64,000 nucleotides of DNA from contig NC_088295.1 of assembly GCF_032854445.1 (NCBI RefSeq), positions 70,768,028 to 70,832,027 of the forward strand, given 5' to 3'. Shown here piece after piece: positions 6,901 to 49,273 of this stretch. The notes beneath the pieces were generated by a model. It worked only from the letters and a program-made list of their open reading frames with translations, made no database searches and was not told the DNA's origin. This DNA comes from Liolophura sinensis. Taxonomy: Eukaryota > Mollusca > Polyplacophora > Chitonida > Chitonidae. A program made the translations under genes and the position numbers. Positions within the stretch are counted from its first letter, which is position 1. Each line of letters starts with the position of its first letter.

Positions 6901-9359
6901 ACTTCCGGGTGATCCGTCAATACCCCTCAAACCCTGCGGACAAACTGATCAGATTAATGCCATGTTTAAGCACGTTAATGCATATTACACGAATTTCTTC
7001 CTCTCCGATATGTCCAGTGTAGCGTCCAAATGGGAGACTGCATAATCTGTAGATTTTCAGTTACAATATTGTTGCTCGATAATGATGGACGTAAGAACAT
7101 GTGTCATTACAACGTTTTCACTGACACACATAATCAACGTTATAAGGACATGTGTCATTACAACGTTTTCACTGACACGTATAATCAACGTTATAAAGAC
7201 ATGTCATTACAACGTTTTCACTGACACACATAATCAACATTATAAGGACGTGTCATTACAACGTTTTCACTTACACACATAATCAACGTTATAAGGACAT
7301 GTGTTATTACAACGTTTTCACTGACACACACAATCAACGTTATAAGGACATGTGTCATTACAACGTTTTCACTGACACACAGAATCAACGTTATAAGGAC
7401 ATGTTTTAGTACAACGTTTACACTGACACACATAATCAACGTTATAAGGACATGTGTCATTACAACGTTTTCACTTACACACATAATCAACGTTATAAGG
7501 ACATGTTTTAGTACAACGTTTTCACTGACACACATAATCAACGTTATAAGGACATGTGTCATTACAACGTTTTCACTTACACACATAATCAACGTTATAA
7601 GGACATGTTTTAGTACAACGTTTTCACTGACACACATAATCAACGTTATAAGGACATGTGTCATTTCAACGTTTTCACTTACACACATAATCAACGTTAT
7701 AAGGACATGTTTTAGTACAACGTTTTCACTGACACACATAATCAACGTTATAAGGACATGTGTCATTACAACGTTTTCTCTGACACATAATCAACGTTAT
7801 AAGAATATGTTTCATAACAAGGTTTTCACTCACAGATATAATGGGCGTTATAAGGATGTGTTCCATTATTAACCTTCATTGATAAACATAATCCTAACTG
7901 ATGTTGGGCTTACTTGGAGGAACTTATTTGTGGGCACAGAAAAAGTAATCGAATTTAGAAATTAGCAAGGAGAGATCCAATAAACAACATAACAATGACC
8001 AAATTCTGTGGGCCTGGTATTAACTCATACACAATAAAGCGTTAGGAATCCATCATTAGAGGCATTGGTATTTAGATGAAGAGCTGACATATGTTGTACT
8101 TACAGCTGGTCCTGGAGCGCCATCACGTCCCTGAGATCCTGGAGCACCGCTCTCACCAACTGCACCGGGGACACCAGCAGGACCGGACGGGCCAGTAGCT
8201 CCCTATTCAGATACAAAAAAATCAAATTTGATGGTGGGAAGCTACATAATTGATAGACATAGAAATTAAAGAAACTATGGGGTATCATAGTTAAATTAGA
8301 ATTGTTGTTATTTATCTAGATTTGGAAATTACTGCTTATATACAAATCATACAGGCCCTAGTTAAAAATTAAGCTCAACAAGCTAACAGAATTAAGTTAC
8401 ACGAAACAAGGTGTTCAACAATGACATCTTGGTATGGTCACATATTATGGTGTAAGACTCGTATATGAAATTCAGGTGTCAGCATCATAATATAGATTGT
8501 TTATTGCTACAATATTGCTGAAATACTGGTGACGTGACGTTGAGTCAGAATTTTCTTCACATGAGATTGTACACTTCCGACTCAAAGGCGTCATTTTGTG
8601 CTTAGCGGTTATCTTACCTTTTCACCGGGAATACCTTGGTTTCCTTGACGTCCAGACACACCGGGGAAACCCTGGGATACAGAAGATAATGGAAGGTGTG
8701 TAAAACATGTAAGACTTCGTAGCTTTTCTCACAAAATGTTTTTCACAACGTTGACATGGTGACTAGAGATACAGCTATATCCACATTCCTGCTTTGCACA
8801 AGAAGTTTCTTCTGGCTCCAAATATTCTGATATTTTGAATATCCAGGTAATGAAGTACTTGCGGGTCTATATGCGTTCAAGATATCCCAGTTTTCCAATA
8901 CAGCGCAATCAATAGCTTCACATCATCCGAGGACAGCTTTAATGTACTTTGCTATACTCACTCGGTGGCCTTTTGGTCCAGGCAGACCTGGGATACCGGG
9001 CAACCCACGAGCGCCCTGTAAAATGGAAAATATGTCAGATAAGGAATGGATTTAAAATACTGTACTAAAACACGTAAATTAAATTCGAGTTTTTATCTCA
9101 AGTTTTAAAACGAAAAATTATTGTTAGGCACCTTTGGATGCAGGTATATTTGAACGTATGTTTATGTTAAGATGTATATATCACGTGATGTACCTGAAGG
9201 CCTTGTAATCCACGGGGTCCTGGTTCACCGTCTCGTCCACTGTCACCCTAAAACGGAAATTAGTCGATAATAGCAAGCTAGCAAACACTAAAAGTACCAA
9301 CACTTCAGTTAGGTAAACGTAAAGATGCTATATGCACTCCCAACTATTTTTCTCTGAAG

Positions 9360-9446
<87 letters not shown>

Positions 9447-12400
9447 AGAAAAGACTCAGTCTTTAGTGATTTTATCGTGAAAAATATTAGTAATTGTTGA
9501 GATCGAGGTGTTCAGTTATGTGACAGCTTCACTTACACTTTCTCCAGCTAGACCAGGCGCGCCGGGTGGACCACGTGGACCCGGATGGCCCTACAAAGAA
9601 AAAAACAGAATATACAGTGTGCCACAAAAATTATGCTAATGTATTAGACATAGTCTTCATAAAAAAATAATTACAGTTTTATTAAATAAAATAGCAATTC
9701 TTAGACACAAATTTTTTTTTAATATTACGTGGACCATAACATTGCAAGAATATTGTAGCAAAAAATAAAATAAAAACGTAAATGATGTTATACACAAGTA
9801 AGGACAGAAGTACTAAAGAAGAATATATTTATGTTTAACTTCACTACTTGATGTTAAGGAATTGCAGTGCTTGGGTGTAGTATATGGAAGTACTGAAAAC
9901 TGACATAGGATTAACTGAAAGAGAGTGATGTGTATACTTACGGGTTGACCCGGATCCCCCGACTCCCCAGGGAGACCTTGGAACCCAGGTGGACCCTAAA
10001 CAGAGGAAAACAGACAGCATAAAATATAGACCTACCTGTAGAAGATATGGACAGTGTCTGGCATTGCTTACACATGAGGCTTCCAGTTCATACTCATGTA
10101 TTAGGATTGATTATCCATTGTTTTCCTCTTGACAACACGCTCCGGTACTAAGCGAAGTCTCAATATTGATTTTGTTTATCAAGGTGAATTAAGAAGATTC
10201 CACTCGCCAGGCACATAGCAAGCCCACTGTCTTGGAAGTCGGTAGAACCAGTGAGAGCTGGAATCGAACTTGTCGCTGACCGGTCAGTGGGAAATTGTAG
10301 GAAAATTCAGGCAAAGGCCAGAGAACCCCTCGCGGCGAATGCCCGTCAATTGGTTACGAAGAGCCCAGTATTACGTTTTCATCAGTTCCCAAGAGTTATA
10401 TCCCTTTGATAGCATTGGTTAAGCAATTTTTTTCACCAATATCTTAATAGGAGTATAGACAGAGGCGACACCTACCGGCTGTCCGGGCGGGCCAGGTGGA
10501 CCGCGAGGGCCTTGAGGACCCTGCAAGAAGAGAGAGGTATGGAATAAACAATAGTTTTCATGCAGTCAAATAATATGTCCAGATGATAGTTAGCATTAGA
10601 TCAATTAATAGTTCAAATGATTTTTTTATTTATTTGTTTGACTGGTTTTTCACTCAGTTAAGATGAGATTATATATATCCTAATATATGATCAGAGTAAG
10701 AGATCAGAGTGGGAATAAAGAAAATGTGAGCTGTAAAAATTTGCTACATGCATGTAGTAAAAGTTAGCATGATGACATAATCAGTTCCACAGAACTGTAC
10801 ATAACCTGAGGTTGTGAAATACTTACAGGCTGAGCTGTTATATAACTAGATTGTTGGAATCCATAGCCTTTGTTGAAGCCTTGTGGAAAGTAGTTATCAG
10901 CCTGGTACTGTAAACAAAAACACCACAAGAAAACATAAAGAAACGTAAATGAGACTAATGGGGGGAAAGTGAGCGGGAAAGATCAAATAATTCTGTACTA
11001 TAATCATAATAAATTTAAAGTGAAGGTGAATCTATTGTAGGTAAAGAATGATCCTGATTTTTGTTAAATCACACTCTTAAACTGTTTTGTCACCGGTATA
11101 ATATAATTCTTAAAGCTGTTATATTGTCTCAACTGCTACTGTGTACGAAGAAGATCTAAATAGTCTTACGTCTGGAGAAGCGCCGGGGGGACCTGGGGGG
11201 CCCGGGATGCCATTGTTACCATTACGGCCTGGGTCTCCCTGTGGACAAAAAGTGGACATATCATAACCAACTCGTATCCATACATTAGGATGAAACAACA
11301 TTAAAACAATGCTCTTCTAAAAGGCGCAATGCATTGCACGTTCATTTATTTTTTATTTAAAAATTTATAATAAAAATAATAGTTCAAAGTATGTTTCTAA
11401 GAAATCAACGAGAGAACAGTTATAACTAATAGAAACATATTACACTGGAGTAACAGCCTAAGAACATAGCCGTCGCCATTAATGCAATCATAGCAACTTA
11501 CCCTTGAACCGGCGGGGCCTTGTGCTCCTGGGGCACCCTCATTGCCCCGGCGACCCTGAAACAATGCAACAACTCGTCAACACAACTATATTAAAACGCG
11601 AATAACAAACACCTAGGTCCACCCAACGGTGGACTTTCACAACAACAAAAATGAGGCAATACATTTAACTGTAAAAAAAATGCAAAGCAGCGCCTGGTCA
11701 AACAATTGAAACATTTGCTTCCAGTAAAGATGAATCTCTCTCAACGAGGCCGCTGACTAATTTCTCTATACTGCCCATAGTCAGCTCTAGTATGACGGAC
11801 TTCATTTTGACAAGCCTCTCTAATTTGAATGTCTTAATCAATCAGACAAGGTGGCCTTGTCAGTACGCTGATATGGCGTATTGCCGATATAAGTTAGCAT
11901 ACCATTTGTCCAGGAACGTCCATTGGAGGTATGTTGACATGGATCTGAGAAACAAAAACAAAAATATTGTTGTTAATCAGAGCAACCTATTCATAACAAA
12001 ACATGTTAGTGCTTTAACATTAAAGTTGTCCACATGCCTTTACTCTGAGATTTTACTTCAGTAAGCTCGCGTCTTCACTCTCATACTTAATTGCAACTTG
12101 TCACAGTATATTTCTACTCTGAGATTTGAATTCAACTAGTCCACGTGTGTCCACTGTTAGACATTACTGCAGTTTGTCCCATTATTTCTACTGTGAGATT
12201 TGACTTCAGCGTTATACGCGATCTCTTGCATGGTTGCCATTTGTTCACGTTTTGAACTCTTGAGGCTTCACTTCATTTCTAAACTTACTGACAACATGTA
12301 TTGAAATAAAAGTTATCACCGAAAAAACTCCATTATTTTCAGGAATTTCCTTTTAAGAAAGAGAGAATCCTACCTCCTCTGTCTTCTCTTCCTCTGAAAA

Positions 12401-15400: not shown

Positions 15401-16984
15401 CACATTCATGGTATGATATCGTCAGCTTCTGGAGAAACAATTGGAAAGGTTTCAGAGTCTATATCCTTGGCCTAATATTGCCCGACTAGAAACAAGTGCT
15501 GAAGTTACAAAGTTAGTATTCTTACAATTCATTATACTACATACTTTGAAATAGGTGTAATCCTGGCAAAGTTCATGCCGTAATAAAGTATTGTCTTTCC
15601 AGAAACAAGTTGTATGTAAAGTTAAGTATCTTATTAACGATATTATTTTGACTTGATTTAATCACACCGGCGCTATGAGAACTGCGCAATATCTATACTG
15701 TAATTAGTTCAACGGAAGTCGATAAACAAGTGAACAGTTACACCAGGCAATGTTGATCTAAACATGGTGGTAATATCCTTCATTGCTCTAACCCGGTCTC
15801 AGTAAGGACAATCACACAGTCGAGATTACATCATCATAAAATTGTCTACACAGACAATCTGCTTTATCACGTGACAGGCGATAAGTGCGCAAAAATTACA
15901 GGACTGGAAAAAGGGAAGACATCGAACAGAAACTGTAATTACAACAAGTCATTTAGTTCCGTTATAACTGGCGCACTGTTTGGAAATACTTTCAAGACGT
16001 TTCCCAGGGAAATTTGGGGGGGGGGGGATATGAGCTGTCAATCATCCTGATAGGAGGGGTTAGGTGACCAATGTAAACCCCTCCCTAAAATCAAAATGGC
16101 GATTAAATCACTTACAATGTGGATTGTGTGAGAAATACGGAACCAAAGATAAGTGCCGTATTTAATACATAATTAGAAAGACATACCATTTATTTTTGTC
16201 TTGTTACTATATTTGATCGATAAACAGTCACTTCGAGCTGCTAACTTAACTCAAAAGCATGTGAGGTAACTAAAAACAGCCAAAATAATTATTTAAAACT
16301 CACTTTAAAACATAAGTTAAGACATATCCGGTCTTGTGCAATTTGGACATTGAACGTACATTTATAAACGAAATCAATAAATAGTTCTTTTTCGAAGCAG
16401 ACGGCTCTGCTACAAGGTTGCCCGGGTGGGTGACACCGCAAGGCCACGTCACTCTACGTCTTAAAGTGGGTCACTTGTGCCACTCTAAGGTGCCGCCATT
16501 GCCCAACAGGCTCACCGTGAAAGAAAACTATCGACAACACAATTTTGCCAAAAACAGCGCATCAAACTTGACAAAAATCCTAATTCAGACTGCCGTTCAT
16601 TTCCCTGTCAAACTACCTTGGATGTCTCCCGTCAGATAATGCAAGCCCGAAGGATTCATAAGAAATGTAGTTTCTTATTTTAAGAGAAACGGTTAAATGA
16701 CACTGCTTAATGGTATGTGACCTAGAGATCAAAGTTACAAGTCTGGAGGACACATTGGTTGGCCAACTTGTGATGCAGAGCAGACATGTGACTTAAATAC
16801 TGTCAGATAATGTAAACTTCGGCCCTGATGTTTGTAACGCTATAACTGGAAAGAATTGGTGATGAAAAAGAAACATGTTGACGTAAAGAAACTAATGGCA
16901 TGGAGACAATATTAACTCACCGAATCCTTGGGACGATACGGCCGAAACCAGTAAGAACAACGCCAGGAGGATCTCCCCCCTCAT
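65..16984 (-). CDS. Fibrillar procollagen alpha chain, clade A type (gene A), 3' part outside window
   Basis: This is a secreted extracellular-matrix chain that should trimerise and form fibrils. In sense order the coding exons are 16921-16984, 12882-13076, 12374-12393, 11903-11944, 11502-11555, 11170-11238, 10827-10907, then 22 main-helix exons from 10476-10520 down to 65-280. Together they give 2433 nt (811 codons). The order is signal peptide, VWC domain, acidic linker, minor helix, N-telopeptide and 212 uninterrupted Gly-X-Y triplets. All junctions are GT-AG and phases agree throughout. About 126 triplets and the C-propeptide must lie beyond position 1. The VWC exon as given has two compensating one-base frame breaks, probably sequence errors. 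The exon sizes match gene B at 27757-49087, so this is its tandem paralogue. VWC plus a long perfect helix is the family signature of clade A; the exact orthology is not resolved. Confidence 0.93.
1345..1818. repeat. 63-bp minisatellite in gene A intron
   Basis: About seven copies of a 63-bp unit containing TCAGACAATCTGAAAAGCAC and a GGCACAGGATATAACG-like segment. The central copies are nearly identical and the left copies diverged. The array begins about 20 bp upstream (in sense) of the acceptor of exon 1272-1325. Because 63 is a multiple of 3, it leaves long open frames on both strands that are not genes. Confidence 0.9.
2985..3147 (+). mobile_element. Family 2 SINE, 5'-truncated, in gene A intron
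   Basis: GTTCAGCATGAAGGGGATAG and CAACGACTGGTTGACCCG match the body of 23925-24272. It ends CGTCGTCATATGACTG, ACGACGTTAAACCCCAAGC and an (ACTC)n tail. It is antisense to gene A. Confidence 0.72.
4160..4440. repeat. Degenerate 120-bp tandem repeat in gene A intron
   Basis: TCTGGATAT recurs near 4224 and 4344, and TCTCTGGATATAGC near 4279 and 4399, a 120-bp period made of two diverged units of roughly 57-63 bp. GATTCTAGT and GCTGAAAA also recur. Confidence 0.7.
4509..6933 (-). CDS. Gene A main helix exons, second block
   Basis: The exons are 6835-6933 (99 nt), 6383-6526 (144), 6048-6146 (99), 5655-5762 (108), 5214-5267 (54), 4846-4953 (108) and 4509-4553 (45), all uninterrupted Gly-X-Y with GT-AG borders. 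Exon 5655-5762 contains GVPGER at helix residues 271-276, similar to GxOGER integrin-binding motifs if the proline is hydroxylated. The block corresponds exon for exon with gene B 39619-42018. Confidence 0.95.
7085..7860. repeat. 51-bp minisatellite with two-unit higher order in gene A intron
   Basis: About 15 copies of a roughly 51-bp unit around ACAACGTTTTCACTGACACA and AATCAACGTTATAAGGACAT. From about 7400 the units alternate between a GTGTCATTAC/CTTACACAC type and a GTTTTAGTAC/CTGACACAC type, so the later array is a 102-bp higher-order repeat. A 182-codon open frame on the minus strand is a by-product. Confidence 0.93.
8104..10520 (-). CDS. Gene A main helix exons, N-terminal block
   Basis: The exons are 10476-10520 (45 nt), 9942-9995, 9537-9590, 9194-9247, 8962-9015, 8618-8671 (54 nt each) and 8104-8202 (99 nt), all perfect Gly-X-Y. 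Exon 8962-9015 ends GPK GHR, placing Lys at helix residue 84. That KGHR matches the N-terminal helical cross-link site of vertebrate fibrillar chains (Lys87 in human alpha1(I)). The introns contain nothing recognised except an AT microsatellite at 9361-9442; intron 10521-10826 shows only AT-rich sequence. Confidence 0.95.
9361..9442. repeat. (AT)n microsatellite in gene A intron
   Basis: About 40 uninterrupted AT dinucleotides in the intron between exons 9194-9247 and 9537-9590. Length is likely polymorphic. Confidence 0.95.
10827..10907 (-). CDS. Gene A exon 7: N-telopeptide region
   Basis: This is an 81-nt phase-0 exon without Gly repeats, beginning [11 protein letters not shown] and ending SSYITAQP, with an NKGY motif in the middle. 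It lies between the minor and main helices, where the N-proteinase site and N-telopeptide occur. The lysine in KGY is shared with gene B (DYKGY) and is a plausible lysyl-oxidase cross-link site. Confidence 0.8.
11170..11555 (-). CDS. Gene A exons 5-6: minor collagenous segment of the N-propeptide
   Basis: Exon 11502-11555 encodes six triplets ([18 protein letters not shown]). Exon 11170-11238 encodes [18 protein letters not shown] and then GASPD, where the repeat ends. This gives 12 full triplets plus a partial one, comparable to the short N-propeptide helix of vertebrate types I-III. Gene B has no equivalent; its Ser/Gly-rich exon occupies this position. Confidence 0.85.
11903..12393 (-). 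CDS. Gene A exons 3-4: short acidic linker exons
   Basis: Two small exons join the VWC domain to the minor helix. Exon 12374-12393 (20 nt) completes the split Glu codon and encodes EEEKTEE. Exon 11903-11944 (42 nt) encodes [14 protein letters not shown] and has a strong pyrimidine tract before it. The phases fit: the VWC exon leaves one base, the 20-nt exon takes two, and everything after is phase 0. The 20-nt exon is a micro-exon and is the less certain of the two. Confidence 0.65.
12882..13076 (-). CDS. Gene A exon 2: VWC (chordin-like) domain, frame-broken as given
   Basis: The exon is 195 nt with phases 2 and 1, as in gene B's VWC exon. The ten-cysteine VWC pattern is present but split over two frames. 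The frame entering from exon 1 gives [11 protein letters not shown] and then meets a TAG. The frame one base earlier gives [24 protein letters not shown] and TCADPIP. The entering frame then returns with [10 protein letters not shown]. The breaks fall at the GGGG run near 13036-13043 (one base too few) and at CCCGG near 12911-12915 (one too many), so the net length is right. That is what sequence or assembly errors would look like; genuine damage cannot be excluded. The domain usually sits in the N-propeptide of clade A chains and binds growth factors in some vertebrate members. Confidence 0.8.
13385..13592 (+). mobile_element. Diverged tRNA-derived SINE in gene A intron 1
   Basis: A B-box-like GTGTTCGAATCC is followed by a 3' end CCGCCGTCATGTAAGTGAAA and GTTAAACACCAATGAAC that matches family 1. 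It is antisense to gene A. Confidence 0.6.
13621..13679. repeat. 59-bp direct repeat, copy 1
   Basis: A 59-bp sequence starting AGTGCATAGTCAACTTTCCG and ending TTTTCGAAAAATAAA is repeated exactly at 15312-15370. It contains the palindrome TTTTCGAAAA. Both copies are in gene A intron 1. Confidence 0.85.
15312..15370. repeat. 59-bp direct repeat, copy 2
   Basis: An exact second copy of 13621-13679, 1691 bp away. The 1.63 kb between them shows no coding potential that I recognise. Confidence 0.85.
16921..16984 (-). CDS. Gene A exon 1: signal peptide
   Basis: The ATG at 16984-16982 opens 21 codons plus one base: [10 protein letters not shown] followed by [11 protein letters not shown]. This is a typical secretory signal with a hydrophobic core of about 12 residues and probable cleavage after SS. 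The donor is G|GTGAGT. The start is preferred because gene B begins with the same nine residues (MRGEILLAL), with A at -3. Intron 1 (13077-16920) is about 3.8 kb. Confidence 0.9.
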
Positions 16985-16996
16985 CCTGGATTTAGG

Positions 16997-17045
16997 CTAG
17001 GAAGAGCCGTGCTGCAACCACTCGATTGCAACACAAGATTCCTAG
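16997..17045 (-). promoter_or_regulatory. Gene A 5'UTR stem-loop
   Basis: In the RNA sense an outer CUAGGAA pairs with UUCCUAG, and an inner GUGUUGCAA pairs with UUGCAGCAC (nine pairs, one G-U) around an eight-base loop. The hairpin ends 12 nt before the AUG. The same structure occurs in gene B with a different loop sequence. It recalls the 5' stem-loop of vertebrate fibrillar collagen mRNAs that LARP6 binds, although that one spans the start codon. The pairing is read directly; the function is inferred. Confidence 0.6.
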
Positions 17046-17080
17046 TAAATGTAGCCTAAAGAGTCGTCCCTGCTGTAGGC

Positions 17081-17098: not shown

Positions 17099-17112
17099 GG
17101 GGCAAACTACAA

Positions 17113-17176
17113 GCAGTCGACTAATGATCTCCAAGAGGACACGCCTTTTAAATATGATGACGTTTTCTGGACCAAT
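17113..17176 (-). promoter_or_regulatory. Gene A core promoter (predicted)
   Basis: On the minus strand an ATTGG (inverted CCAAT) lies at 17172-17176, a TATA-like ATATTTAAAA at 17146-17155, and an initiator-like TCATTAG about 28 nt further on, giving a predicted start near 17125. The stretch CATTAGTCGACTGCTT recurs at the same place in gene B. The 5'UTR would be about 141 nt. The positions are inferred from motifs and from paralogue conservation, with no transcript evidence. Confidence 0.55.
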
Positions 17177-27756: not shown

Positions 27757-29641
27757 TTACCGGAAGCAGACTGGACCAAGCTCGATGCCGAACTCTTGGT
27801 TCTCAGCACCAATGTCACGGACAAACATATCTGTCACTGGTAGCCAGCGCGAGTGTCTCGTGCTAATTTCAATAACTGTTTTGTCCCAGGTGTTGGTCTT
27901 ATCCTGTAAAAATACAAAACAAAACAGTGTTTTTGTAATATATAGTATTCCTAAGATTAGGGGTATGATCCTAATACACTGAATCCTGAAAAAATTACAG
28001 CAGGGAAACTTTCATTAATAGCCTAGATATCGCCTGAATATACTATTACATGTTACTCTAATCAATACTTTCAAACATTAACGAACTGTAAATACAAGAC
28101 GGCTGTTAAAGATACCACACGTTTTACACAAAGCAAAGTGATAATTTACAGTTAAGGTAATATAGTATACATGTCTTCAAAATGAACAAATCTAGGCGTA
28201 GTATCAGATATTCGTATATATCAATCGTTCATCATAATTATTTTGTGTCATTTTTAATTAATAGATTTGTGCAGCTCTCATATATACATTACCTTGCAAC
28301 CATCAAATTTAACAGCATATCTCTTCTTGGGATTTTCATCAAAAGGTGTTATCGTCTCTCCGTCAAATCGTTCCAGCATTACAGCCATGTCGCTGACATA
28401 GTCGTTGGTCGTTGAATCTCCGTAGGCAACAGAGTTGCGGCAGTGATAGGTGACGTTCTGATAAGCGTGTCCACTCAGGAGCTGGAGGAAACGGATCTGG
28501 GAGCCTTCAGCCTTGTAATAGAACTGAAATCACAGTGCCAAATTAGTTAACTAAGTCTTTCTCTGCTGAAAATTGTCATGAAATTTTGACCGTTTACGTA
28601 CAACTGATAGTGTTTAAGTAGAATAAAATCGAGTAACTCCAGATAAACTATCTGCATACTTGTAAAACAAAGGACGCACAAGGAAGAAATAGAACATTTG
28701 TTACGTAGGTAATAAAATCTGAGAGGTAAAGATGGAACCCCTTTATAGCTTTCCCACACAGTACCAAAAAAAAAACAAAGCATAAATGTGAGACAGCGCC
28801 AAGAAGAAATACTTAATCATGGAAAGCCATTTAAAAAGTGTCCCAAGTACTACACAGTTGTCTTTCTCAACTAGTGAGACATCCCAGTATCGACCTACCT
28901 TCCTGCTGCTCATCTCCACAAATGACATGTGGTCAATGGGCGTCTCTGTGGACCACCGTTGTCGGTCACTCTGAAAACAAAATCGAACAAACCTTTGTTA
29001 CTATTGATTGCATATGAACTGTGACTCCCACTGAATGTCATAACTCCGGAAAATGACAAGCACTGTATCTTTGATTTTACATTTCTGCTTTATTAAACCA
29101 TCTACACAATGTTAATATATCAATTGCATAATGTTATATTATGACATGGCAGTTTTCATGCAATCTTTTTAAAATACATTATGTATGTTGGTTTGATCCT
29201 TACCATGCTTGGCTGTGGTAGAATGCAGGTTTCCATCGTTGATATCTTACAGTATACCTGGAAGCTGTCGGCCAGTCTGCCTTGGTTGGGATCCACCCAG
29301 TACATACCTGAAGTGCGAAACGTTTAGAAGTATATTCAAAGAAGTTGCAATTCCACAATTACAATTTTTTAGCATTAGAATTACGAAGACTGAAAAGAAA
29401 GTACTAAAAATGGAATAGATGGAATACAGTACTACAGTACTGCTGAAGTTCTAGAGCACACATTATCGCCAAAACGAAAGGTAGGAATGTAAGGTCGGAT
29501 TTTCAGCATACCATCCTGAAGATCAAGGCCAGGGTTTGAAACGACCAAGTCTCTGCATGAACGAGCAGGGGCATCCTGTTGTCCAGTAGGTGCCTTGATC
29601 TGCTCCATGATGCTGGCGATGTCAGTGACGTCAACGATGTC
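27757..29641 (-). CDS. Gene B COLFI C-propeptide
   Basis: The exons are 29512-29641 (130 nt), 29204-29307 (104), 28899-28970 (72), 28293-28523 (231) and 27757-27903 (147 with stop). The domain directs chain selection and trimerisation in the ER. Visible landmarks are [15 protein letters not shown] (coiled-coil stalk region), [16 protein letters not shown] with a following Asp (calcium site residues), NVTYHC (N-glycosylation sequon, as NIT in human), VKFDGC and the terminal GPVCFR. Only six cysteines are present. The C2 position (LKMC in human) is LVVS and the C3 position (PNQGC) is PNQGR, so the two interchain cysteines are absent while all intrachain ones remain. Confidence 0.95.
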
Positions 29642-41600: not shown

Positions 41601-44600
41601 CTCCGGGGGCACCCGGACTACCGCTCTCTCCTCGAGGTCCAGCAGCACCGATGGCACCACGAGGTCCACCGTTTCCACGATCACCCTAGTGAGAAAATGT
41701 TAATGTTTGTGAAGGTAATGTAATAGCCTTTTTGGTTTAACTGATATCACCATAACGACATATACACACATTACAGCAGAGACCTCTTAGGTATATTATT
41801 GTCTTTTGCAAATGTTTTTAACACTTCAGTTTGTTTAGGGTAGATTTCTTATTGCTGGATAAACTGTGGGCATACCTGTATGCTTTATATTTAACTTCAT
41901 GAGGTATTTGAAGAATTACCTTTGCACCAGCAGAGCCGGGGAAGCCAGGGGGACCAGCTGGGCCGACGGGACCTGGGGGGCCAGGGTTTCCCGGAGAGCC
42001 GTCAGTACCGCGAAGACCCTGATAGAAAATAGAAACGGTCCATTAGTAATTACATTCACATTGCTAATTTCATATTTCACATATTCAACTTACCTACCAG
42101 CATGTGAATTCGAGAAAAACGGAAACAAAATATTACTTGCGAATTATTTGCCGAACCTAAATTGCTTTATTTTCTGTCATTTAATATCAATAAATGTCAT
42201 GGGAATTTAACCAAGTACGTTTATATGAAAGCTATCTTGTTTTAATGATATAATACAAATAAGTGATCCATCATAATTCCAAATATCTATAATGTAAAGT
42301 TAAAGGAGTCTTACTGGAGATCCAGTGGCACCGTCTCGGCCTCTCTCGCCGGCACTGCCCCGGGGACCTTGGGGACCAGCAGGACCAGGGGGACCTGTGG
42401 CGCCAACATTACCCTGTCAGCAACGAAAATACACAGAGTTAACCATATCTGTTTATTAAACAGCAGCTAGACTCGTGGCACTCGCATTATCTTGTCAGCA
42501 ACGAAAATACACAGAGTTAACCATATCTGTTTATTAAACAACAGAAAGACTTGTGGCACTCGCATTATCTTGTCAGCAACGAAAATTCACAGAGTTAACC
42601 ACTTCTAAACAAACCACATCGAAGTGAAAAGTAAGCCTTCAACACTTAGATGATCAAAGACACTTCGTTTCTTTCCAGTTGGGTTTTTTGCACTTAGTGC
42701 ATTACTACTGTCAATGCCCGCAGAATATTTCTACGAAACAATAGCGTGCTACTTTTCTCCACGAAATTTTTTGTATTAAAGTTCACGTGTCCTACCTTGT
42801 CTCCTTGTCTTCCGTCACTGCCGGCCTTGCCGGGAACTCCTGTGAATCCCTGAAAGGAAACGAAAGAAAAGATACGAATTACTTAAGGTGAAGGATGTGG
42901 CTTGTATCGTTAAATACTGACCACAAGAAGACAAGACACAGTGTACCCCATAATACCTTATTACATATATTCTAGCCATTAAACGTTTCGTACTAAACCA
43001 CATCTAAATATAGTTGCCTTGCATGTATCTTACTACATGCATACAGTCCACGTACTACGAGAAATGTTGCATACAGTCCACGTACTACGAGAAATGCTGC
43101 ATACAGTCCACGTGTTCCGAGAAATGCTGCATACAGTTCACGTACTCCGAGAAATGCTGAAATCTATTTGTTTGCAGTGCATGAAAACAAATGGATAATG
43201 GCAGGTGTACTTACTCTGTGTCCTTTAGGTCCGGGCAGACCTGGGATGCCCGGCATACCACGGTTACCCTGTCAACAGAAACAAGCAACAGTAAATCATA
43301 CTGCATTCCTTGGACACGGAAATTAAGATAAGATTTAGTCTTTGGTTTATCTAACAATCACTAAATTTTACTGTTAACCTTTAAGTCAGTAAAGGGAGTG
43401 TCAAAGAAATTTCTTCCAATCTGATTGTGGACAATGGCACATAGGGAAACGTAGAGGATAAGAGAATAAAGAAGTGTACACTTACTGTTAAACCTTGAAG
43501 ACCACGTGGGCCAGCCTCTCCATCTCGGCCAGACTCTCCCTGGAAAATACATAGAGGATATACAGGTTAATAGTCACCCACAAACAATGACACTCGTTCA
43601 TTTATACAATGGTTGATGTTAATGTTCATTTAAACAGTTTTCCCTCCTATCAACATGTGCATGCATATGTTCATTAAGGACTGAACTGACACGCTTTATA
43701 CTTTTGTATTCATGAAGTCATGTTATAAAGAGGCGAGCTGTGTAGGTTACACTTACATCTTGTCCAGGAACACCAGGGGGTCCCATGGGGCCACGGGGTC
43801 CGGAGGGGCCCTGTAGGGAGAAATCAAAAGGTTATGGTGTTTTTTTTTAGTAATACGAGAAAAAATGAGTCATTTGAATGAAACTAAAAAGAATAGGCCG
43901 ATTAATAAACTTGTTAATTCATTTTACGACACAGAATTTCACAAATTGAAACTTTTGGCAGTATAAGATCTAGAATTAAAACGTTACACACTTACACGCT
44001 ATCGATCTTTTGTACGAAGTTAGTGTACTTACTGGGGGTCCAGGCTCTCCAGGCTCGCCTCTCATACCCTGGAATCCTTGAGGTCCCTGTGGAAGACGTC
44101 ACGAAACATATAGTGTTCACATCCAATCATGGACGTTGGTAGTCTTAAACACGAGACTTACATCACATGGTAGGGATATATAGCTAAGTCAGTGTAGACA
44201 TTAAGCCAGTTAGCCACTGACAACAAGCAACTTGAATACATTTGGCAAGAATTCAGATTAAAATGAATGAAAATAGCAAAGGCCATCTGGCAGAAAAGAC
44301 ACGAATGATTAGTCTGTTACCTTTGTGTCTGTACATAAATATGAAACATGTATTTTATGTTTTATGTTAATGATTGGTATATCTTACCGGAGGACCGGGA
44401 GGGCCGGATGAACCTCGTGGACCCTGAAAAATAGAAGTGGTTATATTGAAACAGAAATGCTCTGTATCACCACAGAAGTATAGTTACATGTAAATAGCAG
44501 ACGATTCCTTATCTGCACCAGATTGACATTGATAGAGCAGTGGTGATGTTCTAAAATGATCAGAAATATGGATCAAACCTTTCCAGTCCTATTACAATGT

Positions 44601-47600
44601 TAAAGACTTTTTAATTATTTTTAACACAAACCACATTGTCATGTTTCTTACATGTGAAATAAATTCTGTTTATTACAAAACTACTGCTCCAATCTGGTTG
44701 AACCTCAAACAACTTAAGAGCTATAAAATATAAAATTATTGCAAGAGATATTCTCTCTATGGCATATTTGTGTTATTAGCTGTTTTTATACAAACGAGCA
44801 TACTTACGGGTGAGCCAGGGTATTGTTGGCCGTATCCCTGAGGAAGATAACCTTTGTAGTCACCACCATAACTGGCCTGTGATTGGTACGAATCCTGAAC
44901 AAAAAGAGGTTAATAGGTCAATTGTCTACTTTCATCTTAGGGAGTTCATCCAAAATTCCATAATGAAAGAAAAAATTCAGACGATTCTATTCTTCAGTAC
45001 TCAGCAATACAGCATAATGCAAAACTTAAATGTTAAACACAAGTTACTTTACCTGTTGACCACCACCAGCGGCAGCACTTCCCCCACCGTATTGTTGTCC
45101 TGAAGCGTATCCTCCTCCAGAAGACGAGGAATATTGGGAGTCTGAAGATGAGGCAGAGCCGCCGCCGCCGCCGCCGCCGCCGCCCCCAGCAGAGGAGGAG
45201 GAGGAGGAAGAGGAGGACGAGAGGGAGCCGCCGCCGCCGAGGGATGATGAGAGGGAGCCGCCGCCGCCGCCGCCGCCGCCGAGTGATGATGACGAGAAGG
45301 AGCCCCCTGCATCGCTGCCACCGCCGAAGGATGATGACGAGAAGGAGCCCCCTGCATCGCTGCCACCGCCGAAGGATGATGAGAAGGAGCCCCCTCCATC
45401 TCCGCCGCCGGTTGAGGAGGAGGAGGAGAAAGAGGACGATGGCTGAAACATAAACACATACATATCTTCAAAGCCTGGCCCATCCTATCCCAACCTTTGA
45501 ACATCTTACTACTCCAAACTTTTATAATATGTGGGGCAGTTTGTGTCTAGGTTAATAATGCTGTTTGTGCTAATACTATAGTGTATGGGTTAATAGAGCA
45601 CAGCTTAACACTTGTCATGACAGAGGTTACGTTAACAACACCCGGACTTTTTATCTTATCTTACTGATTTGAAGTACTAACTGAAAGTAACAGATGAAGT
45701 TGGATGTTGTGGTGTTTGTGAACGGTGAGTTTTAAATCGGAATTTTACAACTTAAAAACTCTGGCCGATACTGGCACAAAGAGATACAGTAGAAAAGTTG
45801 CTTGATTTTTCAACAGAGTGACATTGCCTTAATTTATTGTCATTATGAAAGCAATGGGACAATTTTCAAAGATCAACAACAACTAAGATGTTGTAAACGT
45901 ACGAAATATGATACGAAATACTGATTAATAAGTTTACTTACACCATATTCATCATAGTAGGTGGTGTCTGAAAAGAAAGCAAACAAATCATGAGAGCCGA
46001 TTAGACATTGGCCATTTAGAAGAGATGAACCAATATGTATGTCTTCTGTCAGGAGTAATGTTCCTATACATTGTTGCGTAGATTTACAACATCAGTATGT
46101 TACAGGCTAGTGGATCACTAGCTCTTATCACGGCATGGAAGTATCGCACTGGCCATGTCATAAAGTGGTACACACAAGGACACACAGAGCTGTACACAAA
46201 TACATACACACAGTGATACACACGCGCATACACACAGTGGTACACACACACATACAACCAGTGGCACACACACACACATACAACCAGTGGTACACACACG
46301 CATACACCCAATGGTACACAAAGTGGTACATACAATGTCTCTGCTTTGTGCGTCTTAGAATTTGTTACACCCTGTGTGTTGTATGACCATTTCAGAACGT
46401 CACAAGTTACTACAATGACATCAAGTGTGTCAAGAATATCCTATTCAACGCCTTCCCTCAAAATTTTAAAAAATTTTTTACGACTTTAAATCTGTTGCAA
46501 AGTAAATATGGTCTAGTCTCCAAAATGTCAGGCGCTCTGCTTTATAACGGTGTCTAATTCAACCCAACTCTGGGTTAGAGGCTGCAACGTGTTAAATAAA
46601 ATGGCCGTGTCGGTATGCCAACAGTTGCAATCAAAGCACAACTGAGATATATATGTCTGATTGAACTAGCATGGTACACGGTTTGGACGCTAATGGGCTT
46701 AGAACATCAACGAAAACTGGTGACGGTGATTCTCTTTCCATGACTCGACCCTAATTACTTACTTTAAATAATGTAGCTAATTTTTTAGTGGCCAGTTTGT
46801 GTTGAACGTTGTTTTGAAAATTTCATTTTGGACGTACCTAAAACATCCATTATAGTTGACGAATGGTATAGGGATCTAAATGCCAAGTCCGACATTCGTA
46901 TACCATCCGTAAACCATAAATGGGCGTTTCAAGTTAATAATCGCAGATGTCTGATACACCACGTAAATTAATAACAGAGAAAACCTAAATCAGTATGAAA
47001 GGTGTTTGTAAATGTCTCACCTGGACACTTGGGGCAGCACTCTCCTTCTGCAGCCACAGCATCCGGACAATTCACCTCCTCACAGCTCTCGTAGTAACAC
47101 TCCAACTCTCCGTTCAGACAGGTGCAAATCTTGCAAGGGTCCGTGGACGGCTCCGGCCGAAGACTGTCCTGGTGGGCATAGAACTGCCCATCATAAGTAC
47201 ACGGTTTGTCTGTGAAACAACAAGAAAAACACAGCTGTAATGATATTAAATATATTTATCCTTTAATGCATAAAGCGAAAATGAAACAAGTGTATCATAA
47301 TTGAAGTTCAGATTTAGGAACTATCCTATTTACCCTGTTATAAAAAAAAACACTCATTCCGATAACTTATTAACTTAAGTACATTGGTTTTACTTTCAGA
47401 AGAAACCATACAACAAAGTCTGATTTACACACGTCGTATGCGCTTTGGGTCATGTGTTGATATGGTCGACCGAAAGCTTTAATACATCATTGCTTCACAA
47501 ATATCTATTGTTTTTTTAAAAAGGTTCAGTGAGAAGTCTGTACGTTAGAATATAATCATTGTTGTTGCCTTTCTGGAGAGCCATATGTGTGCATTTTGTC

Positions 47601-49087
47601 GCGTTTGACTGTGGCGTTTGCAGGCTACCAGTCACGTTGGGTAGGTGGCCCATAGGCTACACAGTTACTCCGTAGTTACTTCCATCCAAAATGGGCTGGA
47701 ACATGTGGCTGGCACTCGATCAGAGAGAATAATTCAAGGGTACAGATTATACCCCATGCAGGCGTCCATGTGGTGAGAAGCTAGCACTTCTTCGTAAACA
47801 GGGCCGTATTTGATAAGTGAACTTTCTGTAGCAAATGGTAAATCCGGGCATTGGAATCTTCATATTGTTTATGCATCTTGATTCTGATAGGTAACAATAA
47901 AACAATGTAAAGTTGACATTACAGTCTGTGTCATCTCCGGAAATTGAGAAATGTCACGCGCAGCCCCTGGGGTGTCACAGACGGTCACAGGAACAGTGAC
48001 GATTGAATGGAATCGTGAATACCACGATTATAATAACATGCTTAATACTGAAACAATTATTTGAGAAAGCACTGTAAAATGTTCAAAAAATAAATTAGAG
48101 TCTTGTAGGCGGCCCAGCATTTTAAAGTCTTAGATGATATTAAAATTATTCCACACAAGTGTTAATATATTGTATTTTACTTAACAACTTAAAAGGTAAA
48201 CTTTTGTGTTTAAGTCAATGTTAACTGCCAAAGGCAGGTGTTCAAAACGTACAGATTAACTGGAAGAACTCGCAATGTACATGTCGAGCCACAAGCAACG
48301 AGTGGTCGGAGAGAAGCAGCAGGAGGCCATAGAGTAAAATATGAAATATGTTACTTCTAAAAAAAAAAAAAACAAGTATTTTTCTTATTAAAAACAGATA
48401 ACAGGATAAAGAAAATTACTTAAATATCTTATGCAAAGCTTTGAAAGAACACTGGCGTTGTGTAAATTTGTATTTATGGGATTCACCTTAAGTGAGATGG
48501 ATTAAGCGGTTATGGCGGCCTTTGACGGGTTGTCTATCATTGTTTAGTCCCGCCCCTTTACTCAAATAGACCACCCCCTCTGATGGTGAATACAGCGTTT
48601 AAAGTCGAACCCGACATTTAGAAACAAGTGTATTATTTAAATGAAAAGTTAAGCCGTAGTTTTAAACTGAGTATCTACGGAAACGTTTTTGTCTAGTTAT
48701 CAATCTGCCTTCCATCCATGCGGATGACAATTCAGTGATTTGCCCACAGTCCACAGACCGTAGCTCCAGTGTAGTCTGAGTGTTCCAGAATGTCAGCCTA
48801 TCTTTCCATGTTTCTCTTACAGTCACTATGGTCAATCCAAAACTACATGTAATTTCACTTTGATTCTTGAAAATTTATCTGAAAAGTGATGGCTTTATAT
48901 GAACCTAAAATTTCCTAATGGCGTCTTGGAATAAACCTTAAAAAAAAAACAGCCAACAAAATTTACTGCTGGTTATACACTGCTGAAATACTTTGCCATG
49001 CCAAAATATGAAATAAAGACACTTACCATCTTGGCCGGCCACCACGGTGACCAGTCCGATCAACGCTAGGAGGATCTCCCCCCTCAT
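27757..49087 (-). CDS. Fibrillar procollagen alpha chain, clade A type (gene B), complete
   Basis: This is a complete secreted fibrillar collagen chain: 48 coding exons, 4548 nt, 1515 residues. Order: signal peptide (49027-49087), VWC (47021-47209), acidic/Tyr linker (45942-45967), Ser/Gly-rich exon (45053-45442), N-telopeptide (44808-44894), 36 helix exons (44423 down to 30999), C-telopeptide (30711-30782, 30180-30203) and COLFI C-propeptide (29641 down to 27757). The main helix has 338 uninterrupted Gly-X-Y triplets (1014 residues), the same number as human alpha1(I). The stop is TAA at 27759-27757. Two features stand out: the C-propeptide lacks the usual interchain cysteines C2 and C3, and the N-propeptide has a Ser/Gly block in place of a minor helix. 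Its tandem neighbour is gene A. The naming as a type I/II-like chain is by architecture only. Confidence 0.96.
30180..30782 (-). CDS. Gene B C-telopeptide and C-proteinase junction
   Basis: Exon 30711-30782 (72 nt) ends the helix with GPP GAP and continues [18 protein letters not shown]. Exon 30180-30203 (24 nt) encodes YRGDEARP. The junction YYRGDEA aligns with YYRADDA of human alpha1(I), which BMP-1/tolloid cuts before Asp. Here the site would be Gly-Asp, as in type III procollagen, and it also creates an RGD. The EK lysine is a candidate telopeptide cross-link residue. The intron 30204-30710 has no other recognised feature. Confidence 0.85.
30999..35845 (-). CDS. Gene B main helix exons, C-terminal block
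   Basis: The exons are 35792-35845 (54 nt), 35431-35484 (54), 35078-35239 (162), 34681-34788, 34145-34252, 33805-33912, 33533-33640 (108 each), 33260-33313, 32678-32731, 32335-32388 (54 each), 32025-32132 (108), 31501-31572 (72), 31252-31287 (36) and 30999-31034 (36). Exon 32025-32132 opens GAK GHV, placing Lys at helix residue 927, the counterpart of Lys930 in human alpha1(I), although Arg is replaced by Val. A sense-oriented SINE sits in intron 31573-32024. Confidence 0.96.
31666..31895 (-). mobile_element. Family 1 SINE, near full length, sense-oriented in gene B intron
   Basis: The reverse complement of the family runs from the AAAT tail at 31666 to a degenerate A box at 31895. Its sense is that of gene B, so the tail places several AATAAA hexamers in the pre-mRNA sense strand of intron 31573-32024. 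Confidence 0.8.
32826..33150. repeat. Short-period (about 19-bp) minisatellite in gene B intron
   Basis: About 17 degenerate copies of a unit like GGCCAATCACTGTTCAGT in the intron between exons 32678-32731 and 33260-33313. Many units contain CCAAT or TCAGT variants. Confidence 0.88.
36055..36410. repeat. 111-bp tandem repeat abutting a splice donor in gene B
   Basis: TGGCTTAC recurs at 36181, 36292 and 36403, exactly 111 bp apart. The last copy is the true donor (sense GTAAGCCA) of exon 36411-36626. The other units carry the same donor hexamer inside the intron. Confidence 0.92.
36411..40918 (-). CDS. Gene B main helix exons, middle block
   Basis: The exons are 40811-40918 (108 nt), 40345-40398 (54), 39941-40048 (108), 39619-39663 (45), 39319-39372 (54), 38740-38838 (99), 38314-38421 (108), 37972-38124 (153), 37648-37746 (99), 37106-37159 (54), 36830-36883 (54) and 36411-36626 (216). 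All are uninterrupted Gly-X-Y. GMPGER at helix residues 256-261 (exon 40811-40918) resembles the GMOGER integrin site of type III collagen. Two donors depart from GTAAG/GTGAG: GTTTGT at 38313 and GTGTGT at 37647. Confidence 0.96.
37300..37610. repeat. Degenerate tandem repeat (about 110-bp period) in gene B intron
   Basis: Three diverged copies share TTTGTTCCTT, CCAATGGTTTTCAAACTAAG and AAGTTCTTTGA in the intron between exons 37106-37159 and 37648-37746. Confidence 0.7.
38875..39130. repeat. Degenerate tandem repeat (about 32-36 bp) in gene B intron
   Basis: Repeated variants of TGTAGGCCTATACAGACAATG in the intron between exons 38740-38838 and 39319-39372. Confidence 0.75.
40426..40545 (-). 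mobile_element. Family 1 SINE, 5'-truncated, in gene B intron
   Basis: The 3' part of the family lies with its AAAT tail ending only about 28 bp before the acceptor of exon 40345-40398, in gene B sense. The branch-point region must be in or next to the SINE. Confidence 0.8.
41193..44423 (-). CDS. Gene B main helix exons, N-terminal block
   Basis: The exons are 44388-44423 (36 nt), 44033-44086, 43757-43810, 43486-43539, 43215-43268, 42796-42849 (54 each), 42315-42413 (99), 41920-42018 (99), 41542-41685 (144) and 41193-41291 (99). All are perfect Gly-X-Y. Exon 43215-43268 ends GPK GHR with Lys at helix residue 84, the N-terminal cross-link site. Apart from tandem repeats at 42414-42615 and 43020-43160 the introns show nothing recognisable. 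Confidence 0.96.
42414..42615. repeat. 78-bp tandem repeat abutting a splice acceptor in gene B
   Basis: TGTCAGCAACG occurs at 42415, 42493 and 42571, a 78-bp period with about 2.5 copies. The first copy is the true acceptor region of exon 42315-42413; in the others the sense acceptor CAG reads CAAG. Confidence 0.9.
43020..43160. repeat. Tandem repeat of about 33 bp in gene B intron
   Basis: Four copies of a unit containing GCATACAGTCCACGTACTAC and GAGAAATG between exons 42796-42849 and 43215-43268. Confidence 0.88.
44808..44894 (-). CDS. Gene B exon 5: N-telopeptide region
   Basis: An 87-nt exon encodes [22 protein letters not shown] and QQYPGSP. The last three residues, GSP, are the first triplet of the main helix. 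The KGY lysine is shared with gene A and is a candidate cross-link residue. There is no clear N-proteinase consensus. Confidence 0.85.
45053..45442 (-). CDS. Gene B exon 4: Ser/Gly-rich N-propeptide block
   Basis: A 390-nt phase-0 exon encodes 130 residues that are almost entirely Ser and Gly, beginning [13 protein letters not shown]. It has runs of up to ten Gly and ten Ser and a repeated unit [15 protein letters not shown] (about 15-16 residues). The end is more mixed ([15 protein letters not shown], then GGGQQ). The DNA is a GCC/GGA-rich near-microsatellite, so length polymorphism is likely. It sits where gene A and vertebrate chains have a minor collagen helix. Ser/Gly blocks of this sort occur in silk-like and shell-matrix proteins; any such role here is a guess. 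Confidence 0.85.
45942..45967 (-). CDS. Gene B exon 3: 26-nt Tyr/Asp linker
   Basis: This exon completes the split codon left by the VWC exon and encodes DTTYYDEYG, with acceptor TTTTCAG and donor GTAAGT. It occupies the place of gene A's EEEKTEE micro-exon. The flanking intron 45968-47020 holds a CA-rich repeat (46170-46325); the rest has no recognised feature. Confidence 0.82.
46170..46325. repeat. CA-rich minisatellite in gene B intron
   Basis: Repeated CAGTGGTACACACACGCATA-like units mixed with plain CACACA, in the intron between the linker exon and the VWC exon. Confidence 0.85.
47021..47209 (-). CDS. Gene B exon 2: VWC domain
   Basis: A 189-nt exon encodes an intact VWC domain with ten cysteines: [31 protein letters not shown] and finally GECCPKCP. 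The CxxC and CCxxC spacing is diagnostic. The phases (2 in, 1 out) equal those of gene A's VWC exon. VWC in the N-propeptide places the chain in clade A (types I, II, III, V alpha2 in vertebrates). Confidence 0.93.
49027..49087 (-). CDS. Gene B exon 1: signal peptide
   Basis: The ATG at 49087-49085 opens 20 codons plus one base: [10 protein letters not shown] followed by [10 protein letters not shown], a secretory signal with likely cleavage after VAG. The donor is G|GTAAGT. The first nine residues and most bases match gene A exon 1. Intron 1 (47210-49026) is 1.8 kb; I see no gene or clear repeat in it. Confidence 0.93.
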
Positions 49088-49095
49088 CCTGACTG

Positions 49096-49146
49096 ACTAG
49101 GAAGAGCCGTGCTGCAACCACGGGATTGCAACACCAGATTCCTAGT
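49096..49146 (-). promoter_or_regulatory. Gene B 5'UTR stem-loop
   Basis: An outer stem ACUAGGAA/UUCCUAGU (8 bp) and an inner stem GUGUUGCAA/UUGCAGCAC (9 bp with one G-U) enclose the loop UCCCGUGG. It ends 8 nt before the AUG. Stem bases are conserved with gene A, while three of the eight loop bases and the flanks differ. It is a candidate translational control element comparable to, but placed differently from, the vertebrate collagen 5' stem-loop. Confidence 0.62.
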
Positions 49147-49210
49147 AAAGTAGGCCTAGCTTGACTTGAAGAGTCGTAGCCTGCAAAGCCTGTGTCTTGG
49201 ACTAAGCAGT

Positions 49211-49273
49211 CGACTAATGTCCTAATCTGGGCCAGGGAGACTTTTAACCGGCCTGACACATGTAAAAGCCAAT
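49211..49273 (-). promoter_or_regulatory. Gene B core promoter (predicted)
   Basis: On the minus strand ATTGG (inverted CCAAT) is at 49269-49273, TATA-like GGTTAAAAG at 49241-49249, and initiator-like ACATTAG about 30 nt downstream, with a predicted start near 49218 and a leader of about 130 nt. The spacing and the CATTAGTCGACTGCTT block match gene A. CCAAT/NF-Y sites are also a feature of vertebrate type I collagen promoters. Confidence 0.55.

Follow-up and report, generated by a model that had tools for sequence, protein, structure and literature searches.

A stem-loop predicted before the start codons of two tandem fibrillar-collagen genes in the chiton Liolophura sinensis, with LARP6 as a candidate partner

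The window, by which we mean the whole stretch of 64,000 nucleotides that was analysed (contig NC_088295.1 of Liolophura sinensis, assembly GCF_032854445.1, positions 70,768,028 to 70,832,027 of the forward strand), contains two fibrillar-collagen genes arranged in tandem and in the same orientation on the minus strand, both of which gave matches to the COLFI and VWC domain profiles. Gene A starts at 16984 and runs past the left edge of the window, while gene B starts at 49087, and the exon after the leader resembles a signal peptide by eye. The initial annotation of this DNA, made from the letters alone, had spoken of a mollusc and of a hairpin common to two collagen genes, and both points hold, as the animal is a chiton and the hairpin is common to two VWC-bearing fibrillar-collagen genes. 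The 11 COLFI matches in the genome belong to gene A, gene B, one gene on contig C13 and one match on contig C3 that lies barely above the cut-off (27.7 bits). We take the VWC-bearing genes A and B to be probable members of clade A. The C13 gene has an upstream exon that is TSPN-like by eye, for which Pfam gave no confirmation; a TSPN domain would presumably place that gene in clade B.

Several features of the gene bodies are recorded here in their own right. In the VWC exon of gene A, near 12915 on the minus strand, there is a change of reading frame close to a CCC run, and the VWC match in one frame continues into the typical ECCPVCPG ending in another; the change may come from an assembly error, the coverage being 14X, or from a polymorphism, or it may point to a skipped VWC exon. 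Tandem-repeat-like non-collagen stretches occur within both gene bodies (7046-7875, 9282-9511, 42983-43198 and 45033-45484), comprising minisatellite-like arrays, an AT-rich microsatellite and a triplet-rich stretch, which we recognised as repetitive open frames. In vertebrates the C2 and C3 cysteines of the C-propeptide, as numbered in human COL1A1, link the chains. By eye, both chiton chains appear to be without these two cysteines (gene B 29201-29620, and likewise gene A, both on the minus strand). We had considered the cysteine pattern as a case for obligate A-B heterotrimers and set it aside as uninformative, since both chains seem to miss the same two cysteines.

Upstream of each start codon lies a 16-nt block, CATTAGTCGACTGCTT, which is preceded by a TTAAAA whose offset to the start of the block is 25 nt in gene A and 28 nt in gene B. 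From the sequence, this pair of elements is consistent with a TATA box and a transcription start site, and counted from that putative start the hairpin described below would lie 80 nt from the cap in A and 73 nt in B. The exact 16-mer is also present at C6:42631316 and C6:55573630, possibly by coincidence; these two places are probably repeat copies because their flanks resemble each other, and their presence weakens the block as a promoter signature. One upstream AUG lies within the putative leader of gene A (17098, minus strand) and none within that of gene B; two short upstream open frames are on record for the type I collagen mRNAs of vertebrates (PMC4813270).

When both leaders were folded, a two-part hairpin was found on the minus strand just before the start codon of each gene, as the initial annotation had proposed (Table 1). 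A drawing common to both genes has a lower stem of 7 bp (CUAGGAA/UUCCUAG in both mRNAs, extended to 8 bp in B), an internal loop of 4/5 nt, an upper stem of 11 bp and a 4-nt apical loop, with energies of -23.1 kcal/mol in A and -23.4 kcal/mol in B. The outer stem of 7-8 bp thus stands as first drawn, whereas the inner stem, which had been given as 9 bp with one G-U, is longer, at 11 bp, and includes two G-U pairs. The distance to the AUG is 12 nt in A as claimed; in B the gap is 9 nt, falling to the claimed 8 nt when the hairpin is taken to include its eighth outer pair. Folded without lone pairs, the B hairpin occupies exactly 49096-49146 at -25.1 kcal/mol, and the minimum energy of the B 49-mer is -23.5 kcal/mol. 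The best fold of A on its own differs somewhat from the common drawing, with 7 outer pairs, an internal loop of 2/3, 13 inner pairs and a 4-nt loop (-24.7 kcal/mol).

Table 1. Features of the two collagen genes and their leaders (window coordinates; all on the minus strand).
Feature	Position	Strand	Remarks
Gene B 5' stem-loop	49096..49146	-	8 bp, internal loop 4/5, 11 bp, 4-nt loop; from folding
Gene B upper stem, 5' arm	49124..49134	-	partner 49109-49119; apical loop 49120-49123
Gene B internal loop	5' side 49135..49138 (UCUG); 3' side 49104-49108 (GGCUC)	-	common drawing; 5' side in A is UCUU
Gene A 5' stem-loop	16997..17045	-	46/49 identical to B; from folding
Gene A upper stem, 5' arm	17024..17034	-	partner 17009-17019; apical loop 17020-17023
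Gene B codons 1-9 (MRGEILLAL)	49061..49087	-	26/27 nt identical to A
Gene A codons 1-9 (MRGEILLAL)	16958..16984	-	
Open frame through hairpin	49084-49155 (B); 16981-17055 (A)	-	no AUG
16-nt block CATTAGTCGACTGCTT, putative start region of B	49204..49219	-	identical in A; TTAAAA at 49242-49247
16-nt block CATTAGTCGACTGCTT, putative start region of A	17111..17126	-	TTAAAA at 17146-17151
Gene B COLFI-domain matches (C-propeptide exons)	27763..29314 (C1:70795790-70797341)	-	profile match; one exon rechecked
Gene B open stretch with VWC exon	46968..47255	-	Pfam VWC 7.4e-12

In the context of the putative leader together with exon 1, the pairs of the upper stem have probabilities of 0.98-1.0 in A and 0.88-1.0 in B. 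The lower stem is likewise firm in B (0.84-0.97), while in A its two outermost pairs drop to 0.07 and 0.33 under competition from a longer helix specific to A. Gene A alone has an upstream UUUAGGCU (17053-17060, minus strand) that can pair with AGCCUAAA (16991-16998, minus strand) around the hairpin's 3' end, a pairing that would displace the outermost pairs of the lower stem. A second hairpin, enclosing the AUG, is predicted for isolated pieces of both genes and is not firm in the leader with exon 1, where its GGGGGG/CCUCCU stem has probabilities of 0.39-0.54 in A and 0.12-0.17 in B; the AUG itself is paired with a probability of 0.99 in A and 0.17-0.31 in B.

Against dinucleotide shuffles the 49-mers fold unusually well, with 2 of 20,000 shuffles of A and 6 of 20,000 of B reaching the native energy, and some 49-nt stretch of a shuffled leader folded as well in 2 of 1000 cases for A and 7 of 1000 for B. 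Longer pieces are less extreme: the leaders have z-scores of -3.6 (A) and -2.8 (B), and the leader with part of exon 1 gives -3.2 for A and -1.8 for B (8/200 shuffles), so that the B hairpin, once its surroundings and part of exon 1 are included, beats shuffled sequence by a modest margin only. Stability by itself is not rare, as 25 merged regions (29 by coarse bins) reach -23.5 kcal/mol on the two strands of the window on a 2-nt grid. In a scan of 309,472 strand-bases for the two-stem geometry, 21 loci fitted and only hairpins A and B did so at -20 kcal/mol or below, a background count that is tuned to the hairpins, the limits having been loosened once these were known and the match having been scored post hoc. 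An earlier, stricter geometry scan yielded 2 loci, neither of them hairpin A or B, because small extra pairs alter the minimum-energy drawing.

Genes A and B are old duplicates. Their synonymous difference (pS) is 0.72 over 13 aligned segments, some ends of which run into introns; the count of four-fold sites, less exposed to such overrun because it compares only codons that encode the same amino acid, gives 166 of 249 sites differing, near saturation, and among amino-acid-identical codons the same codon is used in 175 of 404. The 49-mers of the two hairpins nonetheless match at 46 of 49 positions. The three changes, at position 11 in the internal loop and at 23 and 24 in the apical loop, fall on loop bases, as had been claimed for them: all three are unpaired in the common drawing, although in the minimum-energy fold of A taken alone position 11 pairs as U-G. 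In the common drawing all 36 paired and 10 of the 13 unpaired positions are identical, and the chance that three randomly placed changes would all fall among the 13 unpaired positions is 0.016. The shared stems thus carry zero substitutions between these two sequences of one species, so that compensatory change had no room to show itself, and by the measure set in the initial annotation the pattern counts as conservation of primary sequence without covariation.

A block-by-block comparison, in which each identity is set against that of shuffled sequence, gave: 1) 0.49 upstream (shuffled 0.46); 2) 0.47 in the 31 nt preceding the putative start block (0.42); 3) 0.44 in the middle of the leader (0.43); 4) 0.80 in the 14 nt immediately 5' of the hairpin (0.42); 5) 0.94 in the hairpin (0.47); 6) 0.50 in the spacer between hairpin and AUG (0.37), with 6 matches, 3 mismatches and 3 gaps; 7) 0.57 in exon 1 beyond codon 9 (0.44); and 8) 0.43 at the start of intron 1 (0.48). 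Conservation thus peaks over the hairpin and the opening codons and takes in a short stretch immediately 5' of the hairpin. In the first nine codons the same codon is used for 7 of 8 shared amino acids (P 0.003, with codon rates from small samples), so that this stretch appears more alike than amino-acid conservation predicts, and the conserved element may extend through the start codon.

The DNA match between A and B around the hairpin spans 113 columns at 86.7% identity. We searched the 609-Mb, 632-contig assembly for further copies by a best-candidate word search that skipped very common words. Allowing up to 3 mismatches, we recovered the 31-nt core at two places, which are A and B, and the 23-nt 3' half also at two; the 23-nt 5' half occurs at three, the third with 3 mismatches against one match in the reversed control, and a 116-nt DNA search of the genome gave two matches. 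As the core, half and 116-nt searches brought up no extra genome copies, we rejected a dispersed repeat or transposon end as the identity of the element.

That a selected RNA element of some kind is present in both leaders seems to us very probable. For its function we lean, a little beyond an even balance of belief, towards a cis-acting RNA stem-loop kept by selection so that one protein recognises both collagen mRNAs and sets or couples the translation of their chains, in the manner of the vertebrate collagen 5' stem-loop. The same stable hairpin 9-12 nt 5' of the AUG could also be a generic structural feature of the leader that reduces or times initiation, as a roadblock to scanning or through helicase dependence, either without a LARP6-type partner or with another RNA-binding protein, and an internal loop without the adenines critical to LARP6 would suit such a role. 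A roadblock, however, needs stability and not sequence, whereas 36 of 36 paired and 10 of 13 unpaired positions are identical, which points to sequence-specific recognition; we consider a generic structure rather unlikely. Local gene conversion might instead have homogenised a short stretch without any RNA function, as the genes are in tandem and in the same orientation, the conserved stretch is short and the 14 nt 5' of the hairpin are also alike. One conversion tract followed by neutral change is not expected to spare the stems, and the identity is patchy, passing from the 16/16 block through a mid-leader at background to the hairpin (46/49) and codons 1-9 (26/27) and then to an intron at background. 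This patchiness is not decisive, because the spacer is just 9-12 nt, and on balance we judge conversion improbable. Conservation at the level of DNA, as a downstream promoter element or an inverted repeat bound by a transcription factor with the hairpin as a by-product, would fit the nearness of the putative start site and the promoter-like upstream blocks that A and B likewise have in common. Two helices, one of 7-8 bp and one of 11 bp, separated by an asymmetric internal loop would nevertheless be unlike the usual binding-site palindromes, and the three changes all lie outside the common stems (P 0.016), so that little weight falls on a DNA element.

Coding conservation of the hairpin is unlikely. 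One frame is open through it in both genes (24 and 23 codons) up to a TGA that overlaps the AUG, and 2 of the 3 hairpin changes are synonymous in that frame, as might be expected of a short upstream peptide begun at a non-AUG start and kept by amino-acid conservation. Yet this frame has no AUG and has an in-frame stop upstream in both genes, there are just three changes from which to judge, and the complementary arms would be left unexplained, which makes such a peptide scarcely credible; of the other frames, the main frame has two TAG stops within the hairpin in both genes and the second frame stops in A. An iron-responsive element (IRE) was considered because chitons are reported to make unusually wide use of such elements, with 271 predicted for the chiton A. 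granulata (PMC7850002), and a hairpin in a 5' leader is what such an element would look like. CNNNNNCAGTGH, however, has 21 matches in the window (18.9 on average in shuffles) and 0 inside either hairpin, the apical sequences read CGAGUG and CCCGUG, and Rfam reports no family at gathering score for either leader. We accordingly rejected an IRE of the form CNNNNNCAGUGH, to which we give next to no credence. The Rfam search returned over hairpin B a chance-level match to CRISPR-DR8 (13.3 bits, the cut-off being 39) and none at A, and with 18-19 pairs in 49 nt the hairpins look, in our judgement, short for a pre-microRNA.

A candidate for the recognising protein is encoded in the same genome. An open frame of 627 codons' worth of protein (627 aa) at C8:20397656 contains La and SUZ-C motifs, and its La motif finds its best PDB match in the LaM of human LARP6 (2mtf, E 1.5e-33; LARP7 4e-22), with 44 of 64 aligned residues identical to human LARP6; judged by this best match and by its domains, the gene is probably the LARP6 orthologue. 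Six conserved residues of the LaM pocket (Q99, F102, Y103, D112, F114 and F135) are kept in the chiton protein. In human LARP6, according to Table 2 of PMC4288179, mutation of five of the six abolished binding and D112A weakened it. Human W85 and K86 are replaced in the chiton by F and V, positions at which, in the same source, mutation did not abolish the binding of human LARP6 (PMC4288179). Against LARP6 as a dedicated partner, LARP6 proteins are also described from plants and protists (PMC4288179), and human LARP6 is credited with a broad range of RNA targets (PMC13031558). That the chiton LARP6 binds the hairpin is by analogy plausible, a proposal in which we place somewhat less than even trust.

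We can thus outline how such a control might operate. Folding places a two-part hairpin in each leader, and within this genome both genes have retained that hairpin although the noncoding sequence around it is mostly randomised. The constraint would act on the RNA, given that the arms are complementary, that the conserved block is centred on the hairpin and that the changes are unpaired in the common fold. A protein would then bind the internal loop, chiton LARP6 being the most economical and a plausible candidate, and, once bound, would mark both messages just 5' of the AUG, so that translation of the two chains could be set together; a joint molecule built of A and B chains is putative. The system of LARP6 and a collagen hairpin has been described for vertebrate collagen mRNAs, and LARP6 has been studied as an antifibrotic target (PMC4813270, PMC6344531). 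Among the open-access full texts that our searches listed, we found no report of a collagen 5' stem-loop in a mollusc. A wider proposition, tentative and in our view doubtful, is that LARP6-coupled synthesis of fibrillar collagen is not a vertebrate invention, and that molluscs might use the same protein and RNA architecture with a wholly different sequence, through either deep homology with complete turnover or convergent recruitment of LARP6. An element of this shape in a protostome, carried by both VWC-bearing collagen genes of the locus, would open the origin of the control to testing, with the same protein and a co-evolved RNA on one side and convergence on the other. The locus offers a natural experiment in this respect, because the hairpin has been kept while silent sites and most of the neighbouring noncoding sequence have turned over.

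Among known leader elements, the IRE has as its consensus a CAGUGN loop with a bulged C. The chiton element resembles it in being a single hairpin of the 5' leader, which in the IRE has a protein partner, and is unlike it in being without the CAGUGN loop and the bulged C. The closer comparison is with the LARP6-bound 5' stem-loop (5'SL) of vertebrate COL1A1, COL1A2 and COL3A1, which is described as an element of 48 nt, 75-85 nt from the cap, that encloses the start codon and has two stems flanking a central bulge; LARP6 binding needs the bulge nucleotides U and A on side B1 and C, A and G on side B2 (PMC4813270). The human COL1A1 5'SL folds with 8 bp, a 5/4 loop, 10 bp and a 3-nt loop at -23.5 kcal/mol. 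Sequence similarity of the chiton hairpin to this human sequence is undetectable, as 1193 of 2000 shuffles align as well. The chiton AUG lies 9-12 nt 3' of the hairpin whereas the vertebrate AUG lies inside it, and the chiton internal loop (UCUG or UCUU / GGCUC), which A's own best fold narrows to 2/3, has no A on either side. The suggestion of a mollusc equivalent therefore stands for size, two-stem shape, stability, putative cap distance and the presence of LARP6, and falls for the bulge adenines, the enclosed AUG and the sequence. Because these last three differ, we regard the chiton hairpin as resembling a collagen 5'SL in its design rather than as a member of that class: like its vertebrate counterpart it has two helices around an internal loop in 49 nt (against 48), a stability of about -23 to -25 kcal/mol and, counted from the putative start, a cap distance of 73-80 nt (against 75-85), and it is found near the AUG of fibrillar-collagen mRNAs, common to two collagen genes, in a genome that encodes LARP6.
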